Positions 7,091 to 40,656 of a stretch of DNA of 64,000 nt are shown piece after piece. A program made the position numbers and the translations under genes. The notes beneath the pieces were generated by a model. That model had not been told where the DNA came from, made no database searches, and saw only the letters and a list, made by a program, of their open reading frames with translations. The DNA lies in assembly GCA_001769655.1 (NCBI GenBank), contig MEPC01000038.1, positions 1-64,000 of the forward strand, in the 5' to 3' direction. The stretch comes from Bacteroidetes bacterium RIFCSPLOWO2_12_FULL_37_12. GTDB taxonomy: Bacteria > Bacteroidota > Bacteroidia > 2-12-FULL-37-12. Numbering within the stretch: the stretch's first letter is position 1; the number at the start of each line of letters is the position of its first letter.

Positions 7091-8752
7091 ATGCTGAAAT
7101 ATTTTAATATTCAAAACTACACGTTAATTGACGAGCTCCGGTTTGAACCGGCAAGCGGTCTTAATATAATTACCGGAGAAACCGGATCGGGTAAGTCAAT
7201 TTTGTTCGAGGCATTACAACTTTTAGCAGGCGGTAAAAATGAAAACATACAACCTCCGGAGCCGACCCAAAAATGTATTTTGGAAGCCGCCTTTGATATT
7301 TCAAGCTATAATCTGAAGAATTTTTTTATTGAAAACGAACTCGACTTTGAGCCGGTTACCCTTATCCGCAGAGAGCTTGTAATGAACGGAAAATCCCGTT
7401 CGTTTATTAACGATACTCCTGTTTCATTACCGCTTATTAAAAATCTTTTTTCTGAATTAGTGGACTTTCATTCGCAACATGAAAAACTTCTTCTGTCAAA
7501 TGCCGGGTTTATTTTAAAAATGATAGATTCATTTTCAGACACTCATGATTTACTAACTAAAAATAAAAAATACTTTGAGGATTGGAAAAAAGCGGAAGAA
7601 AAATTTTTAGCATTAACTGCAGATGCAATCCGGTTCCGAAAAGAATTTGATTTTTTATCTTTTCAATTAAAATAATTAACGTCCGCAAAATTAGTCGAAG
7701 GTGACTTGGAAAAATCCGAAGAGGAACTTAAGATTCTTTCGCATGCGGAAGAAATAAAACAAAAATTACAAGCGGTTCTTGAAAATTTATCCCGTTCCGA
7801 CGAATCCCTTCTGGCACGCCTCGCAGTGATGAACCGCACATTTTCCGAGTTAAATTCTTTGTCTCCTGCCTATGAACCGTTACGGAAACGGATTGAATCG
7901 GTGATGATAGAGTTGAAAGATATTGGGAGCGAATTGGAATCCCAGGAGGAAAAAACCGACTACAATCCTGAAAGGATTCAACTATTGACAGATCGTATTG
8001 ACCGTATTTATTCGCTCTTAAAAAAACACAATGTAAAACAGGTCAACGAATTAATTACACTACGTGATGACTTGGAAAGCAAATTAAACCGTACTGAAAA
8101 ATTCGAGGAGGAATTAAATTTATTGCAAAAAGAAAAAGAACAATTATTTTTCAAACTAATTTCCAATGCTGATTCATTGAGCAAAGAAAGAATAAAACAC
8201 CTGCCGCTTCTTGAAAAAAAACTTACAAAATTGCTCATCGAAGTGGGAATGCCAAACAGCCGGCTGAGATTTGAAAGAAAGGAAATTCCGATACATGCCG
8301 GAGGAACTGATACCATTCAATTATTATTTTCTGCTAATAAAGGCATGGAAATGCAGGAATTATCACAGGTAGCATCCGGAGGGGAACTTTCCCGGCTATT
8401 GCTTTGTTTGAAATGCATACTCGCAGAGAAAAAAACGATGCCTACCTTGATTTTTGATGAGATTGATACGGGCATATCCGGAGAAGTGGCACTGAGAACC
8501 GGCGTTTTATTAGAAACCATTGCGCTAAAACACCAGATTATCAGTATCACACATTTACCTCAGATAGCGGCAAAAGGAAAAGCACATTTCAGGGTTTTCA
8601 AAGAAATAAAGGGACACAAAACGTTCAGCCGTTTGCAAAAGTTGGATGAAAAAGACCGGATTACCGAAATCGCGCAGATGGTTTCGGGGAAATCGCCTGC
8701 AAAATCCGCAGGTATTCACGCAAGGGAATTGTTGGGGTTGGGAAATATTTGA
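7091..8752 (+). pseudogene. recN: DNA repair protein RecN, interrupted by one in-frame TAA
   Basis: RecN is an SMC-like ATPase that acts on double-strand breaks with RecA. Walker A (ITGETGSGKSILFEAL), the Q-loop region (FHSQHEKLLL), the ABC signature (ASGGELSRLLL) and Walker B (TLIFDEIDTGISG) are all present. The frame is open over about 553 codons, normal for RecN, except for TAA at 7673-7675. The downstream half continues in the same frame (TSAKLVEGDL...LSHAEEI). Comparison with the family suggests the stop replaced a Glu codon (GAA to TAA, one base). The second half could start internally but would lack Walker A, so it would not restore function. This is either a real null allele or a base error. 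Confidence 0.85.
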
Positions 8753-8811
8753 TTTTTATACCTCCCTTGTATAATTCAAAAAAATTTCGTTAATTCGCAC
8801 TTTATTGATTA

Positions 8812-9048
8812 ATGCCAACAGTATTACGAATAGGTCCATTTAGATTTCATTTTTATTCTGATGAAGGAAATGAGCCCGCTCATATACATATCGAATCTTC
8901 AGACGGAGAATGTAAATTTTGGTTAGAACCAGTTAAGCTTGCAGGAAATAAAAATCTTACTCCTCATGTCATTAAAAAAATTGAAAAATTAATTTATAAA
9001 AATCATAATTTACTTCTAAAGAAATATCATGAATTTCACAACAGTTGA
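8812..9048 (+). CDS. DUF4160 family protein
   Basis: 78 residues, full family length. The motif PTVLRIGPFRFHFYSDEGNEPAHIHIE is characteristic of DUF4160. Its function is unknown; it is repeatedly found beside DUF2442 genes and is suspected to be a toxin-antitoxin component. It overlaps the next gene by 20 bp, so the two are translationally coupled. The conserved HIHIE looks like a metal or nucleic-acid site, which is an inference only. Confidence 0.8.
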   Translation: MPTVLRIGPFRFHFYSDEGNEPAHIHIESSDGECKFWLEPVKLAGNKNLTPHVIKKIEKLIYKNHNLLLKKYHEFHNS

Positions 9049-9301
9049 AAATGAAATAATAGCCGACCCGGTGGCTGTTAGTGCTTGGGGCGTTGGTAGA
9101 AAAATCATAATTGAACTTACCGATGGAAGAATCATTAGTTTTCCGGCTGATCGTTTTAAAATTTTAAAAAAAGCAAGTGAAAAAGAATTAAAACAAGTAA
9201 CTATACGTCTCAAGGGGTACGCACTTAGGTGGGAAAATCTGGATGAGGATATAACTGTAAAAGGAATTATTGCAGGAAATTTCCAATTACCACCGCTATA
9301 A
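9029..9301 (+). CDS. DUF2442 family protein
   Basis: 90 residues. VGRKIIIELTDGRIISFPADRFKILKKAS is typical of DUF2442, a small domain also found fused to helix-turn-helix antitoxins. It partners the DUF4160 gene directly upstream (20-bp overlap) and ends before the T9SS cargo gene. If the pair is a toxin-antitoxin unit, this is more likely the antitoxin, but nothing in the sequence proves it. Confidence 0.8.
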   Translation: MNFTTVENEIIADPVAVSAWGVGRKIIIELTDGRIISFPADRFKILKKASEKELKQVTIRLKGYALRWENLDEDITVKGIIAGNFQLPPL

Positions 9302-9378
9302 AACAAATACTATATCTAAAAAAATTTAATCAAATCTATTGCAAACAAATCGTTTCTATTTAACTAATCATTAAAACC

Positions 9379-11604
9379 ATGAAACCACTCAAAACATTTC
9401 TGACCGCTCTCTGTATTCTAATGTTTAACAACATTTCAACAAAAGCCGTCACCTATCTCCAGGCATCAAAATCTGTCAACGGTCCCTGGTCATCTGATTC
9501 TTTAATTATTTTTACCACCGATAGTTTGTTTTTCAAATTCGATTTGGAAGTTCCTGGCGGGAGCGTACGGTTAGCACCTATTATTGATGCCAACGGAAAT
9601 GGAATCATAGACACAAGCGACTTTGTGTTGGAGGATTCCTCAATAATTTTCATTACCGACAATGGCTCTGTAACAGAAGATGGGGAGACATTTTTTGATC
9701 TCGACCCTGCGTTGGGTACGGTAATCCGCAATCTATCAATTAATGATGCACCTGCTTTCAGAGTTATGTGCAGGTTAATAGACCAAAGTTCTTTCCGGGA
9801 TATTTTGGTAGTTTTAAAAAATACGCCTGCTGATTTTTTATTAAGCGGTAACCTGTATAAACCAGACGGAAACCCTTTAACTGCTGGGTATGCTTCAGTC
9901 GAACCGGTCGGAGATTCTGTACGCAGGGCATCTTTTACAAATTATAACGGGTATTATGAAATCCCGTTAAACGCAGGTACTTACCAGGTCGGCTTCAATA
10001 CAATGGATGGCGAATACCAGGGTTGGGATACTACTGTCACTATTTCCGGAGATATGGTTATTAACTACCAATTTCGGGAAAACAACAGTTATATCAGGGG
10101 TTATGTAATTGATCAGGATTCAAATTCGCTGGGGGGAGTAAAAATACGTTTTAACGGTGGAAAAAGCGCTGAAACAGACAGTACAGGTATGTATGAGGCA
10201 ACTCTTCCTTCAGGAGATAACAGGGTTTCCATTGATAAAGATTGGCTTTTGATAAACAAATATTTACATGACGATAGGAATAATCATAATTTTAATCTGA
10301 CAGACAATGATTCTATTATTAGCACTCCGGAAACAAATTTTATTCTTTATAAATCAAACAGTACCATAAAAGGCACTATCCTTTTACAAAATCCTGTTTC
10401 ACTGCGATTAAATTTCAACGTAAACGTTAATGATTTTCATCTTTCAGGGGATGGATTTTCGGATCCTAATACCGGAAATTTCACTTTGGATGTCTATTCC
10501 GGAGTTTATCAGGGAGATACTCTTAAATACTGGATAGGAATTGTTAATGACGATGATAAATATCCTTTCCCTGATGGATTTTATTCATTTCCTTCCGGAA
10601 TAAACGAAGTTCTCCCAGGTAAAAATAATCTGAAATTTGAGATTAACCCCAATGAAACAAACTTTGCTGATTCTTTTAACATGGCAGATGGTAGCCCGTT
10701 TGATTGGAATAACTGGGGTTCAGGTTATGCCAACTCTTCCAATACCTGGGAACAGGATTCAAATAATATCATACAAATAAAAGACAGTAGCGCTTATTTG
10801 TCCGTTACAGCCAACAATCATGATATTGCCCAGGAGGTAATTACACTCGGATACAAGGGATATAGCGTTAAAAACTCCTCTTATGAATTTGATCTGGATG
10901 CTTCGGGTGTGGGTTCCGGAACATTTCGTTTCTCGCTTTTTAATTCAGGTAATATTTATCTTGGACCTTCTCCGTTGGATCAGGGAGAATATAATAAAAC
11001 CCTTTTTCTTAACTATACCAAAACCGGTGGTTGGAGTTTTTATCAGGCATTTGTGAGGGATCAATCCCTGGATTATAACTATAGGAATGAATTACTGCTT
11101 TCAATCCCGGATACGAACTCTGTTGTAAATGTGAAACTGATATTTTCAGATAACAAAAAGATTAAAATTTATCTTAATGATACTCAGAAAGGAGAAATTA
11201 CCTGGGCAACTTTTCTCAATGCAGGTTTCCCGTTTTTCCACGTTATCAATTACAAAAACTTACCGGCGAATAATATCCGGATTGATAATTTTATGATTTA
11301 TCCCGATACATTATCAACAGGTCTTGCTAAATGTTTATCTGTAAGCCGTCCTGTGTCACTGTATCCTAATCCTACTTCTAACAACATCTCATTTTTTATT
11401 TATTCGCAGGAAGGTGGCAGTACCCGTGTGGAACTCATTAATACGCTCGGAGTAAAAGTGCATACCCTTAATTATTACAATTCATTTTCGAGCGAAATAA
11501 AAGGCGCCATTGATTTATCCCAATTACGTTTGCCGAAAGGGGTTTATTTTCTGAGAATCAGAAACAGCCAGGGGGTGTTTACTTCGAAGGTGATTTATGA
11601 GTAA
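9379..11604 (+). CDS. T9SS-secreted multidomain protein with carboxypeptidase-regulatory-like repeats
   Basis: 741 residues. A signal peptide (1 to about 24) leads to an early Asp-rich segment (DANGNGIIDTSDF). Three carboxypeptidase-regulatory-like beta domains follow: FLLSGNLYKPDGNPL around 155, YIRGYVIDQDSNSLGGVKI around 238 and STIKGTILLQNP around 328. A lectin/laminin-G-like beta region spans roughly 430-640 (WGSGYANSSNTWEQDSNN). The last 80 residues form a type A Por sorting domain (SLYPNPTSNN... PKGVYFLRIRNSQG). It is exported by Sec, then crosses the outer membrane by type IX secretion and is cell-surface or released. Substrate unknown; probably adhesion or glycan binding. Confidence 0.85.
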   Translation: MKPLKTFLTALCILMFNNISTKAVTYLQASKSVNGPWSSDSLIIFTTDSLFFKFDLEVPGGSVRLAPIIDANGNGIIDTSDFVLEDSSIIFITDNGSVTEDGETFFDLDPALGTVIRNLSINDAPAFRVMCRLIDQSSFRDILVVLKNTPADFLLSGNLYKPDGNPLTAGYASVEPVGDSVRRASFTNYNGYYEIPLNAGTYQVGFNTMDGEYQGWDTTVTISGDMVINYQFRENNSYIRGYVIDQDSNSLGGVKIRFNGGKSAETDSTGMYEATLPSGDNRVSIDKDWLLINKYLHDDRNNHNFNLTDNDSIISTPETNFILYKSNSTIKGTILLQNPVSLRLNFNVNVNDFHLSGDGFSDPNTGNFTLDVYSGVYQGDTLKYWIGIVNDDDKYPFPDGFYSFPSGINEVLPGKNNLKFEINPNETNFADSFNMADGSPFDWNNWGSGYANSSNTWEQDSNNIIQIKDSSAYLSVTANNHDIAQEVITLGYKGYSVKNSSYEFDLDASGVGSGTFRFSLFNSGNIYLGPSPLDQGEYNKTLFLNYTKTGGWSFYQAFVRDQSLDYNYRNELLLSIPDTNSVVNVKLIFSDNKKIKIYLNDTQKGEITWATFLNAGFPFFHVINYKNLPANNIRIDNFMIYPDTLSTGLAKCLSVSRPVSLYPNPTSNNISFFIYSQEGGSTRVELINTLGVKVHTLNYYNSFSSEIKGAIDLSQLRLPKGVYFLRIRNSQGVFTSKVIYE

Positions 11605-36496: not shown

Positions 36497-37444
36497 ATGC
36501 CAAATCCCACCAATATATTAATTATAGGTGCCAACGGACAATTAGGCACTGAGCTAAGTTTTGAGTTACAGAAGATGCATGGCTATGACCATGTAATTAA
36601 AACCGACTTATATCTACCCAGGCATAAAGTTAATCAAGAGGGGGTTTTTTGTCAGTTGGATGTGCTCGATAAGGATGGATTAATAGAAATCATAAAACGG
36701 CATAATATAAAAATAATCTATCACCTGGCGGCGTTGCTCTCGGCAAGTTGTGAAAAAAAACCATTACAGGGCTGGCAGTTAAACATGGACGGCTTGCTGA
36801 ATGTATTGGAGGTTTCTCATGCCCTAAAAATTAACAGGGTATTCTGGCCGAGTTCCATCGCGGTGTTTGGTCCCGGAAGTCCTAAAGAAAATACACCCCA
36901 GCATTGTACAAAAGATCCGGCTACTGTTTATGGTATTACCAAACTGGCTGGCGAACGATGGTGTGAATACTATTTTGCAAAATACGGATTGGATATCAGA
37001 AGCATCCGGTATCCGGGTATTATTGGCTATAAATCAATGCCGGGCGGCGGAACCACTGATTATGCAGTGGATATTTTTCATAAAGCGATCCATCATGAAC
37101 CCTACGAGTGTTTTCTCTCTGAAAATTCCTATTTACCAATGATGTACATGAGCGATGCCATCCGGGCAACCCTGCAATTAATGGAGTCGGATCCGCAAAA
37201 ATTAAGCGTGAGGTCATCTTATAACATTTCCGCCATGAGTTTTTCTCCCAGTGAAATTTACCATGAAATAAAAAAACATTTTCCGGATTTCTTATGCACA
37301 TTCAAACCCGATTTTCGTCAGCAATTAGCCGACTCGTGGCCAAAAAGCATAGATGATTCCATCGCCCGGCGCGATTGGAATTGGAAACATGAATTTGATT
37401 TGGAAAAGATGGTGGCGGATATGATTTTAAATCTCAGGGTTTGA
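36497..37444 (+). CDS. L-threonine 3-dehydrogenase, short-chain/epimerase type
   Basis: 315 residues. NAD-dependent oxidation of L-threonine to 2-amino-3-oxobutanoate, the substrate of Kbl nearby. Rossmann motif IIGANGQLGTEL, IYHLAALLSASCEKKP, and the catalytic Tyr-x3-Lys in VYGITKLAGE identify the SDR/epimerase form found in Bacteroidota, not the zinc form of E. coli. ATG 36497 gives the family start. It overlaps hemE tail-to-tail by 11 bp. Confidence 0.9.
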   Translation: MPNPTNILIIGANGQLGTELSFELQKMHGYDHVIKTDLYLPRHKVNQEGVFCQLDVLDKDGLIEIIKRHNIKIIYHLAALLSASCEKKPLQGWQLNMDGLLNVLEVSHALKINRVFWPSSIAVFGPGSPKENTPQHCTKDPATVYGITKLAGERWCEYYFAKYGLDIRSIRYPGIIGYKSMPGGGTTDYAVDIFHKAIHHEPYECFLSENSYLPMMYMSDAIRATLQLMESDPQKLSVRSSYNISAMSFSPSEIYHEIKKHFPDFLCTFKPDFRQQLADSWPKSIDDSIARRDWNWKHEFDLEKMVADMILNLRV

Positions 37445-38450
37445 ATCCCTTCACAGTTTCTACAAAGCATTTCACCTTCCCAACCTCTGTATCCGGATAT
37501 AAACCATGTCCAAGATTTGCAATGTGATGATGAGAACCAAAACGTTGGAGCATTTCAATGGTTTTTTTCTCAATTGTTTTATAGTCAGCATATAATAAAC
37601 AGGGGTCAAGGTTTCCCTGCAAGGTTTTTCCCTTACTCCACTTACGCGCTAAATTAATATCCATTGTCCAATCTAATCCAATGACACTACTGGGAAGTAT
37701 TGCAATGTCACTCAAAGAGCTAAAAGCGCCTTTTGCAAAAACAATTACAGGAACCATCGTGGATAATTTTTTACAGATTTGCTCAAGGTATGGAATTGAA
37801 AATTCCTGGTACTGTTCAGGAGATAAAATCCCTGCCCAGGAATCAAAGAGTTGAACTATACCTGCTCCGTGTTTTACCTGTGCCACTAAATAATTGATGA
37901 CACTTTTTGAAATTTTATCAAGTAAATCATGAGCTAAAGCCGGCTGGGTGTATAAAAATTTTTTAGCGTTGGAAAATATCTTCGAACCTTCTCCTTCAAT
38001 CATGTAGGCAAACAACGTCCATGGTGCTCCTGAAAAACCTATCAGAGGTATCCGGTTGTTCAATTCATTTTTTACGATGGAAATGGCTGTGTTTACATAA
38101 GAAATTCCTTCTTCGTCAATGATTTTAATCCGATTAATATCTTTTTTATTCTTAATTGTTTTTTCAAGAACCGGTCCTTTTTCTTCTATCATAGTGTATG
38201 GAAGTCCCATTTCTTCAGGCACCACGAGGATGTCTGAAAAAATAATAGCGGCATCCACAGCAAAAGCAGAGATGGGTTGGAGGGTTGCCTCGGCAGATAA
38301 TTCCGGTGTCTGAACAAGATTTTTAAAACTTTTTGCCTTCAGACGGAGTTTTCGGTATTCGGGTAAAACTCTACCTGCCTGGCGCATTAACCATACGGGA
38401 GTACGTTCGGTTTTTTTGCCGTTTGCGGCGCGGAGAAGCAGGTAATTCAT
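37434..38450 (-). CDS. hemE: Uroporphyrinogen decarboxylase
   Basis: 338 residues. Converts uroporphyrinogen III to coproporphyrinogen III in haem synthesis. RTPVWLMRQAGRVLPEYR near the N-terminus carries the substrate-binding Arg residues, DAAIIFSDILVVPEEMG the catalytic Asp, and GFSGAPWTLFAYMIEG and LDWTMDI are conserved. Other hem genes are not adjacent. Confidence 0.95.
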   Translation of the reverse strand: MNYLLLRAANGKKTERTPVWLMRQAGRVLPEYRKLRLKAKSFKNLVQTPELSAEATLQPISAFAVDAAIIFSDILVVPEEMGLPYTMIEEKGPVLEKTIKNKKDINRIKIIDEEGISYVNTAISIVKNELNNRIPLIGFSGAPWTLFAYMIEGEGSKIFSNAKKFLYTQPALAHDLLDKISKSVINYLVAQVKHGAGIVQLFDSWAGILSPEQYQEFSIPYLEQICKKLSTMVPVIVFAKGAFSSLSDIAILPSSVIGLDWTMDINLARKWSKGKTLQGNLDPCLLYADYKTIEKKTIEMLQRFGSHHHIANLGHGLYPDTEVGKVKCFVETVKGFKP

Positions 38451-38642
38451 AGTTTGTTATTTTTCTTTTCACGAAAGTACTAAAAAATAATCCGTATTTA
38501 ATTTTTCGCAGGAGATGAAACAGAGAAAACCACATTGGAACAATAAAACAGGAGTAGAAACCCAACATCCAATTAAAGCCCTTTTAAATCTTTTTCAAAT
38601 TAAAGCAAAAATGCCCTATATTTTAATGTTTTGCTATGTTTG

Positions 38643-38674
38643 TTTGTTTTTTATAAATCCAATTTCTACTTTTG
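38643..38674 (+). promoter_or_regulatory. Consensus Bacteroidota promoter for the small peptide gene
   Basis: TTTG (38643-38646), 20 bp, TACTTTTG (38667-38674). A full match to the TTTG/TAnnTTTG consensus, ending 33 bp before the ATG of the 47-residue peptide. Confidence 0.75.
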
Positions 38675-38707
38675 CGAAAAATTTTAACTAATTAATCAAA
38701 AAATAAA

Positions 38708-38851
38708 ATGAAAACACTAAACCTAAACCAAATGGAAGCCATCAACGGCGGTCTTGCAATGATTGCCTGCAATCAATTCGTATATGAAATTACAGGAATG
38801 TGTGTAGGACGTCAGTATGTATGTCCCCCATTCATGTTCTGCATCATGTAA
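38708..38851 (+). CDS. Double-glycine leader peptide, putative class II bacteriocin/natural-product precursor
   Basis: 47 residues. The leader MKTLNLNQMEAINGG fits the double-glycine pattern used by C39-peptidase ABC exporters (Leu at -12 region, Met-Glu, Ile-Asn-Gly-Gly). Cleavage after Gly15 gives a 32-residue core, LAMIACNQFVYEITGMCVGR and then QYVCPPFMFCIM, with four Cys (positions 21, 32, 39, 45), probably two disulfides or modified thioethers. The gene has its own consensus promoter and a strong terminator, so it is a single-gene unit. No exporter, immunity or modification gene is adjacent. Leaderful peptides of this sort are common in Bacteroidota but few are characterised. Confidence 0.8.
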   Translation: MKTLNLNQMEAINGGLAMIACNQFVYEITGMCVGRQYVCPPFMFCIM

Positions 38852-38872
38852 GATGGTTATCTTTTAAAAAAG

Positions 38873-38901
38873 CCCGCATCAACCATGCGGGTTTTTTTTT
38901 G
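38873..38901 (+). terminator. Rho-independent terminator of the peptide gene
   Basis: CCCGCAT (38873-38879), loop CAACC, ATGCGGG (38885-38891), then nine T. Lies 21 bp after the peptide stop. Confidence 0.92.
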
Positions 38902-38941: not shown

Positions 38942-40075
38942 ATGAAATCAATCATCGTTCTCGGAGCCGGACTCGTCGGCGGAGTCATGGCAAAAGACCT
39001 CTCTTCGTTTTGCGAGGTAACCTGCGCCGATATCAATGAAGAAAACCTCCGTAAAGTGGCGCTGAATTCCAAGGTAAAAACTGTAAAAGGCGACTTGACC
39101 CATCACGATACGATTCGCAAGCTGGTGGATGATTTTGACCTCGTAGTAGGTGCATTACCCGGATTCATGGGATTCCATGCATTACATTCTGTTATTTCCG
39201 CAGGAAAAAATATTGTGGATATTTCTTTTTTCCCGGAGGACCCGTTTTTATTGGATGACCTTGCAAAAAAAAACCGTGTCACTGCTGTCACGGATTGTGG
39301 AGTGGCACCCGGTATGAGTAACATGATACTCGGATATCATCATAAAAAAATGAAGGTAGAATCTTTTGAATGTCTGGTAGGAGGATTGCCTGTGAAAAGA
39401 ACCTGGCCCTATGAATATAAAGTTGTTTTTTCTGCAGTTGATGTAATCGAAGAATATAAACGCCCTGCGAGGATGATAGAGAATGGAAAAATGGTGGTGA
39501 AAACTGCCTTGTCTGAGCCGGAATTTGTTGACTTTGATAACGTTGGAACATTGGAAGCATTCAATACCGATGGCTTGCGTTCGGTTATGCGCACCATGAA
39601 CGATATTCCTAACATGAAGGAAAGAACGTTGCGATATCCCGGGCACATTGAATACATGCATGTCTTGAGAGAAACCGGATTTTTTGATACTACACCTGTT
39701 CGGATTGGAAATTCCGACATTCGTCCTATTGATTTTACAGCCAAACTGCTTTTTCCATTGTGGAAACTGAAGGAAGGGGAAGAAGATTTTACCGTAATGC
39801 GCATCACGGTAAAAGGTACTGAAAAGAAAAATGAAGTTACCTATGTTTATAATCTGCTTGATTATTATGACCGGAAAAACAAGGTGACTTCCATGGCAAG
39901 AACAACGGGATATACCTGTACTTCAGTGGCACAGATGATGCTGGAAGGAAAATTCAACCGGAAAGGAATTTGTCCGCCGGAATATTTAGGCGAAAATGAG
40001 AAATGCTTTAATCTGGTTCTAGAATATCTGAAGAAACGGAAGGTAGTTTATGACGTGAGTAGAAAGGAGGGGTAG
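38942..40075 (+). CDS. Saccharopine dehydrogenase-like / lysine 6-dehydrogenase family protein
   Basis: 377 residues. The N-terminal Rossmann motif VLGAGLVGGVMAKDL is followed by DLVVGALPGFMGFHALHSVI and VTDCGVAPGMSNMILGYH, hallmarks of the saccharopine-dehydrogenase NADP family, including L-lysine 6-dehydrogenases. The C-terminal substrate domain includes ECLVGGLPVKRTWPYEYK. A role in lysine degradation is likely but not shown; no partner gene is adjacent. Confidence 0.8.
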   Translation: MKSIIVLGAGLVGGVMAKDLSSFCEVTCADINEENLRKVALNSKVKTVKGDLTHHDTIRKLVDDFDLVVGALPGFMGFHALHSVISAGKNIVDISFFPEDPFLLDDLAKKNRVTAVTDCGVAPGMSNMILGYHHKKMKVESFECLVGGLPVKRTWPYEYKVVFSAVDVIEEYKRPARMIENGKMVVKTALSEPEFVDFDNVGTLEAFNTDGLRSVMRTMNDIPNMKERTLRYPGHIEYMHVLRETGFFDTTPVRIGNSDIRPIDFTAKLLFPLWKLKEGEEDFTVMRITVKGTEKKNEVTYVYNLLDYYDRKNKVTSMARTTGYTCTSVAQMMLEGKFNRKGICPPEYLGENEKCFNLVLEYLKKRKVVYDVSRKEG

Positions 40076-40130: not shown

Positions 40131-40337
40131 ATGAAAGTTTTATTAGATATTAAAGATGACAAGGCCTCTTCGCTCATGGAAGTATTACGTGGCTTGTCTT
40201 TTGTGAAAACCGAAATGCTCTCTGAAGAAAAAGTATTGCTTATAAAAGAAATAAAAGAAGCGGTAGAAGAAATGAAATTAATAAGAGCAGGAAAATTAAA
40301 AGCACGACCTGTAAAAGAATTATTAGATGAAATATAG
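40131..40337 (+). CDS. Antitoxin-like protein of a RelE/ParE-type pair
   Basis: 68 residues. MKVLLDIKDDKASSLMEVLRGL, then a long charged helix and a C-terminal KARPVKELLDEI that looks like the toxin-wrapping tail of type II antitoxins. It overlaps the toxin by 11 bp, with antitoxin first as usual. It has no clear helix-turn-helix, so autoregulation may need the complex. Confidence 0.75.
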   Translation: MKVLLDIKDDKASSLMEVLRGLSFVKTEMLSEEKVLLIKEIKEAVEEMKLIRAGKLKARPVKELLDEI

Positions 40338-40656
40338 AGTTCTTAGTATTCCCTTGTTTGACAGACAGTTCAAGCGCCTGCTGAAAAAGTTTCCATCTCT
40401 CAAGAATGAATTAAAAGAACTTTCTGATTCATTGGAACAAAACCCAGAACAAGGTGTACCTATCGGAAAAAATTGTTACAAAATTCGCATAGCTATTGCG
40501 TCTAAAGGAAAAGGCAAATCGGGAGGCGCCAGAGTAATTACAAATATTGTTGTTTCTGAAAATAATGTTTATTTGCTTACTATTTATGATAAGTCAGAAA
40601 AAGCAACCCTTGATATTAACGAACTGAACGAATTATTTAAAAATATTCCACAATAA
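40327..40656 (+). CDS. RelE/ParE-family toxin
   Basis: 109 residues. FDRQFKRLLKKFPSLKNELKELSDSL, then CYKIRIAIASKGKGKSGGARVI and VYLLTIYDKSEK, fit the RelE/ParE fold of type II toxins of the subgroup with a GKGKSGGAR motif. RelE members cut mRNA on the ribosome; ParE members poison gyrase. Which applies here is not decidable by eye. Confidence 0.85.
   Translation: MKYRVLSIPLFDRQFKRLLKKFPSLKNELKELSDSLEQNPEQGVPIGKNCYKIRIAIASKGKGKSGGARVITNIVVSENNVYLLTIYDKSEKATLDINELNELFKNIPQ

Follow-up and report, generated by a model that had tools for sequence, protein, structure and literature searches.

Can a very short gene that encodes a double-glycine peptide, with none of the usual partner genes at its side, be regarded as a true gene, and by which apparatus might its product be processed and exported? 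The question is raised by an ORF of 47 codons (38708-38851, forward strand) in the window, i.e., the whole stretch of 64,000 nucleotides analysed here from Bacteroidetes bacterium RIFCSPLOWO2_12_FULL_37_12. The ORF has exactly the design given in the original prediction: a double-glycine leader of 15 codons, MKTLNLNQMEAINGG (38708..38752), is followed by a predicted mature core of 32 residues, LAMIACNQFVYEITGMCVGRQYVCPPFMFCIM (38753..38848), and by a TAA stop codon (38849..38851). The core holds four Cys, one Thr, no Ser, and one basic residue, and it ends with CPPFMFCIM. The leader was recognized from its sequence and from its match with a profile built on 20 leaders (E = 5.8e-6, the profile including the window leader itself). 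A gene of this size is easily overlooked, and the peptide retrieved no Pfam or NCBIfam family above the cut-off and no solved structure; PADLOC and Rfam did not give any match either, and the predicted structure was of low confidence (pLDDT 51). Nevertheless, homologues exist, both in the same genome and in others (see below), and on this comparative basis we consider the ORF to be coding and a true gene.

The gene is flanked by a uroporphyrinogen decarboxylase gene (37434-38450, reverse strand) and by a gene of the saccharopine dehydrogenase family (38942-40075, forward strand); as had been predicted, neither an exporter gene nor an immunity gene adjoins it. An ORF of 58 codons (38515-38691), which covers the peptide promoter, was taken as spurious, no match supporting it. 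Further along the window, at 40327-40656, a 109-residue protein has a weak match with a RelE-type toxin family (PF06296, 28.3 bits vs. a cut-off of 27).

Upstream of the peptide gene lies the arrangement TTG (-33), N20, TACTTTTG (-7, 38667-38674), spanning 38644..38674 on the forward strand, which fits the Bacteroidota promoter consensus. The promoter announced in the original prediction was thus retained as one of this type, while a sigma-70 reading was dropped. The promoter pattern occurs seven times in the window vs. 8.5 expected, so that alone it is not above chance; it gains weight only because the paralogue described below shows the same layout (TTG-N20-TAnnTTTGCGAAAAA). Downstream, an intrinsic terminator (38866..38901, forward strand) is formed by a 14-bp stem (38866-38898) and a U-run, with a folding energy of -18.4 kcal/mol (z = -4.5), in full accordance with the strong terminator that had been proposed. 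Bounded by these two elements, the peptide gene is a stand-alone unit.

Similar peptides had been expected to be scattered through the genome. The search of the genome by query (rather than by enumeration of its short genes), with a leader pattern and the profile of 20 leaders, retrieved only two real matches, the window peptide and one paralogue, the next match having E = 0.9; hence, the expectation holds for two genes on two contigs. The paralogue (C23:228098-228241) shares 59% identity over its full length with the window peptide (E = 9.6e-11), including all four Cys, has its own promoter and terminator, and lies upstream of genes that read as those of ribosomal proteins L21 and L27. The codon differences between the two leaders are mostly silent. 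Outside this genome, a search of 60 relatives yielded one further full-length match (2.4e-8), and of 395 class genomes two, in addition to the one under study, had true core relatives (1.4e-8 and 6.6e-5). When 84,980 named genomes were scanned with a pattern, core relatives came from two MAGs only, Bacteroidia bacterium NORP286 (JAESSM010000139.1) and Bacteroidetes bacterium B1T1B10 (JACZWC010000065.1), and no relative was found in viral contigs. The leader and the four Cys are conserved in the paralogue and in the relatives, with cores of 29-33 residues across the family. As far as these searches tell, the core family looks rare and the leader widespread.

The genes surrounding the relatives are informative. 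In NORP286 the peptide gene is followed by the genes for a 219-residue protein with five transmembrane segments (five-TM protein) and for a CxxC protein with a thioredoxin fold (thiol oxidoreductase), after which the contig ends. In B1T1B10 the order is six double-glycine peptides, two of which belong to the family of the window peptide, then the five-TM protein, the thiol oxidoreductase, and an ABC exporter with a C39 peptidase domain (C39-ABC); such partners thus co-localise with peptides of this family. The six peptides, all different, lie in tandem upstream of a single exporter operon (positions 8402-9805 of locus L032) and comprise at least two unrelated core types.

The five-TM protein has about 220 residues and about five hydrophobic segments; it matched no Pfam or NCBIfam model above the cut-off, and its predicted structure was of low confidence (pLDDT 37). 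It is present in 19 of the 395 class genomes. A C39/ABC-like gene was found close by in 10 of 18 five-TM loci (one of them from the genome under study and one from a named plasmid), eight of the 10 also having an ORF with a double-glycine leader. Without a model in Pfam or NCBIfam, the protein (L037:9152-9811 and homologues) marks exporter operons. The family may also have another role, since at six loci (L066-L069, L071, and L072) its more distantly related homologues stand without an exporter or a convincing double-glycine peptide. Plasmids yielded only a distant operon of five-TM protein, redoxin, and ABC transporter, from Flammeovirga pectinis (NZ_CP034564.1:43934-47455, L087:7935-11456), where the transporter is of the C39 type, a 51-residue double-glycine peptide (MKKLTFNQMGKINGG) is encoded, and a LanC-family gene and transposases lie near.

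One clear homologue of each of these three partners is present in the genome that harbors the window peptide, on three different contigs and far from both peptide genes. The transporter on which the peptide was said to rely, and the lack of which, together with that of a transcript, would have spoken against the original prediction, does exist: one C39-ABC, and no more than one, is encoded in the genome (contig C23, about 95.8-97.9 kb; 5.6e-34 vs. PF03412), its gene being flanked by those of a thymidylate kinase and of a PAS-domain hybrid histidine kinase, and divergent from the latter. The five-TM protein, of 219 residues, is encoded at C34:85154 (4.9e-56, 40% identity), and the CxxC thiol oxidoreductase of thioredoxin fold at C1:75589 (1.9e-37, 31 orders of magnitude better than the next of the three matches). 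The partner contigs and the window have one common tetranucleotide make-up; the possibility that these contigs had been misbinned was accordingly rejected. The C39-ABC shares 40-48% identity with six exporters adjoining a five-TM protein, vs. 25-31% with 27 others of the class, and in the phylogenetic tree it falls, on a fairly long branch, inside the clade of operon-type exporters (support 99/99), a few distant operon-type exporters being placed outside. The active-site Cys (Cys17), His, and Asp of its C39 domain align with those of PCAT1, as would be expected of a functional C39 exporter.

The five-TM protein, the thiol oxidoreductase, and the link that they suggest with the bacteroidetocins were missing from the first reading of the locus. 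Bacteroidetocins (proposed class IIf; Coyne et al. 2019) have a double-glycine leader of 15-16 residues and at least two, typically four, Cys, and their region consists of four genes, coding for a five-TM protein of unknown role, the peptide, a thiol oxidoreductase, and a C39-ABC (PMC6671954). Toxin activity was attenuated when the gene for the peptide, for the TM protein, or for the oxidoreductase was deleted; immunity was conferred by neither of the last two proteins, and the four-gene set was enough in E. coli (PMC6671954). Since the published regions have no obvious immunity gene (PMC6671954), one need not be expected beside the window peptide. Bacteroidetocin A has BamA as its target (PMC8546649).

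According to these data, the window gene quite probably encodes a secreted, disulfide-bearing peptide of bacteroidetocin-like type, which a dispersed system would cut after the double glycine and export. The gene would be transcribed alone, from its own promoter to its terminator. The sole C39-ABC, on C23, would recognize the leader, cut after Gly15, and export the core of 32 residues, a step that we judge likely; disulfide formation with the help of the oxidoreductase on C1 (about 75.6 kb) is also likely, if slightly less so. The five-TM protein on C34 (about 85.2 kb) would be needed for production. Processing, export, and disulfides are what we infer from the gene content, and the least certain steps lie outside the cell, where the peptide would probably inhibit related Bacteroidota: an antibacterial role is favored, though not strongly, and BamA, by analogy with bacteroidetocin A, is a rather doubtful target.

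The main rival to this reading is that the peptide is a secreted signal (a pheromone), cut and exported by the same C39-ABC and sensed by the producer's kin, no killing being involved. Exporters of the ComA type do carry signals, the exporter gene of this genome adjoins and diverges from that of the hybrid histidine kinase, and stand-alone single-gene units suit regulated signals. However, the B1T1B10 operon showed no kinase of this kind, and its several different double-glycine peptides side by side are more reminiscent of an arsenal, and both the four-Cys design and the gene set match those of the bacteroidetocins; we thus hold a signalling function to be improbable, if worth keeping in mind.

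Much less room is left for the two other explanations. The peptide might be the precursor of a RiPP, with Cys cross-linked by an enzyme whose gene lies elsewhere, e.g., a radical SAM protein, given that putative RiPPs in Bacteroidales also use double-glycine leaders and C39-ABC exporters (PMC10352776) and that the Flammeovirga operon has a LanC-family gene near it. Lanthionine formation is nearly excluded because Ser is absent from the window core and Thr occurs in it only once; moreover, no modification enzyme was seen adjoining the peptide genes in this genome or in the two MAGs, and the partner that does stand beside the peptide genes is a thiol oxidoreductase, all of which makes a RiPP very unlikely. 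The scattering of the partners over three contigs and the fairly long branch of the exporter could, on the other hand, be the marks of decay, i.e., of an operon broken up and of peptides surviving as relics without working export. Yet the reading frames of the five genes are all intact, both peptide genes have kept promoter and terminator as well as the leader and the Cys, their leaders having the mostly silent differences noted above, and the exporter retains its active site; this makes a decaying remnant at least as hard to accept.

Returning to a bacteroidetocin-like secreted peptide, we give about even chances to the idea that these very short peptides with four Cys represent a subfamily of their own, produced in trans from unlinked single-gene units that share one export and disulfide apparatus. 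This, in turn, would imply that new peptides can be added anywhere in a genome. As the mining of bacteriocins is usually guided by gene clusters, such peptides would be missed: here the peptide, its paralogue, and the full set of partners share one genome without clustering. The five-TM protein and its exporter clade also offer a sequence handle for the export systems of orphan double-glycine peptides in Bacteroidota.

Among known systems, the bacteroidetocins are the closest: the window peptide shares with them the leader (15 residues), the four Cys, which the paralogue and the MAG relatives have as well, the Bacteroidota host, the lack of an obvious immunity gene, and, in kind, the five-TM protein, the thiol oxidoreductase, and the C39-ABC, these having been set against the published description. 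In two genomes with five-TM homologues (G169 and G335) the five-TM gene directly precedes a four-Cys peptide with GGKFWG, as in the published regions; in G169 the oxidoreductase and exporter genes also follow, which completes the order known from there. The differences concern the core, of 32 residues (29-33 in the family) vs. 42-48 for A, B, and their nearest relatives (35-50 in the discussion of the paper), ending with CPPFMFCIM and with a single basic residue vs. a net charge of +6 for bacteroidetocin A, and the gene organization, with two unlinked peptide genes and ancillary genes on other contigs, whereas in all published cases they are close by, as they are in B1T1B10 and, up to the contig end, in NORP286. 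Given these differences in core length and in the linkage of the partners and of the two peptide genes, the window peptide is, on sequence grounds, a bacteroidetocin-like variant and not a confirmed member. With class IIa/IIb bacteriocins of Gram-positive bacteria it shares the kind of leader that a C39-ABC exporter processes, although its matches with TIGR03949 (14.9 vs. 21.5 bits) and TIGR01847 (13.5 vs. 15.7) are weak and below the cut-offs, its leader has 15 residues vs. 18-24 (PMC6671954), and it has neither a YGNGV motif nor an adjoining immunity gene. Finally, the exporter aligns over its full length with the C39-ABC transporters PCAT1 and ComA, active-site residues being kept; unlike them, it is part of a distinct clade of Bacteroidota exporters, the genes of which elsewhere adjoin that of a five-TM protein and, mostly, that of a thiol oxidoreductase.
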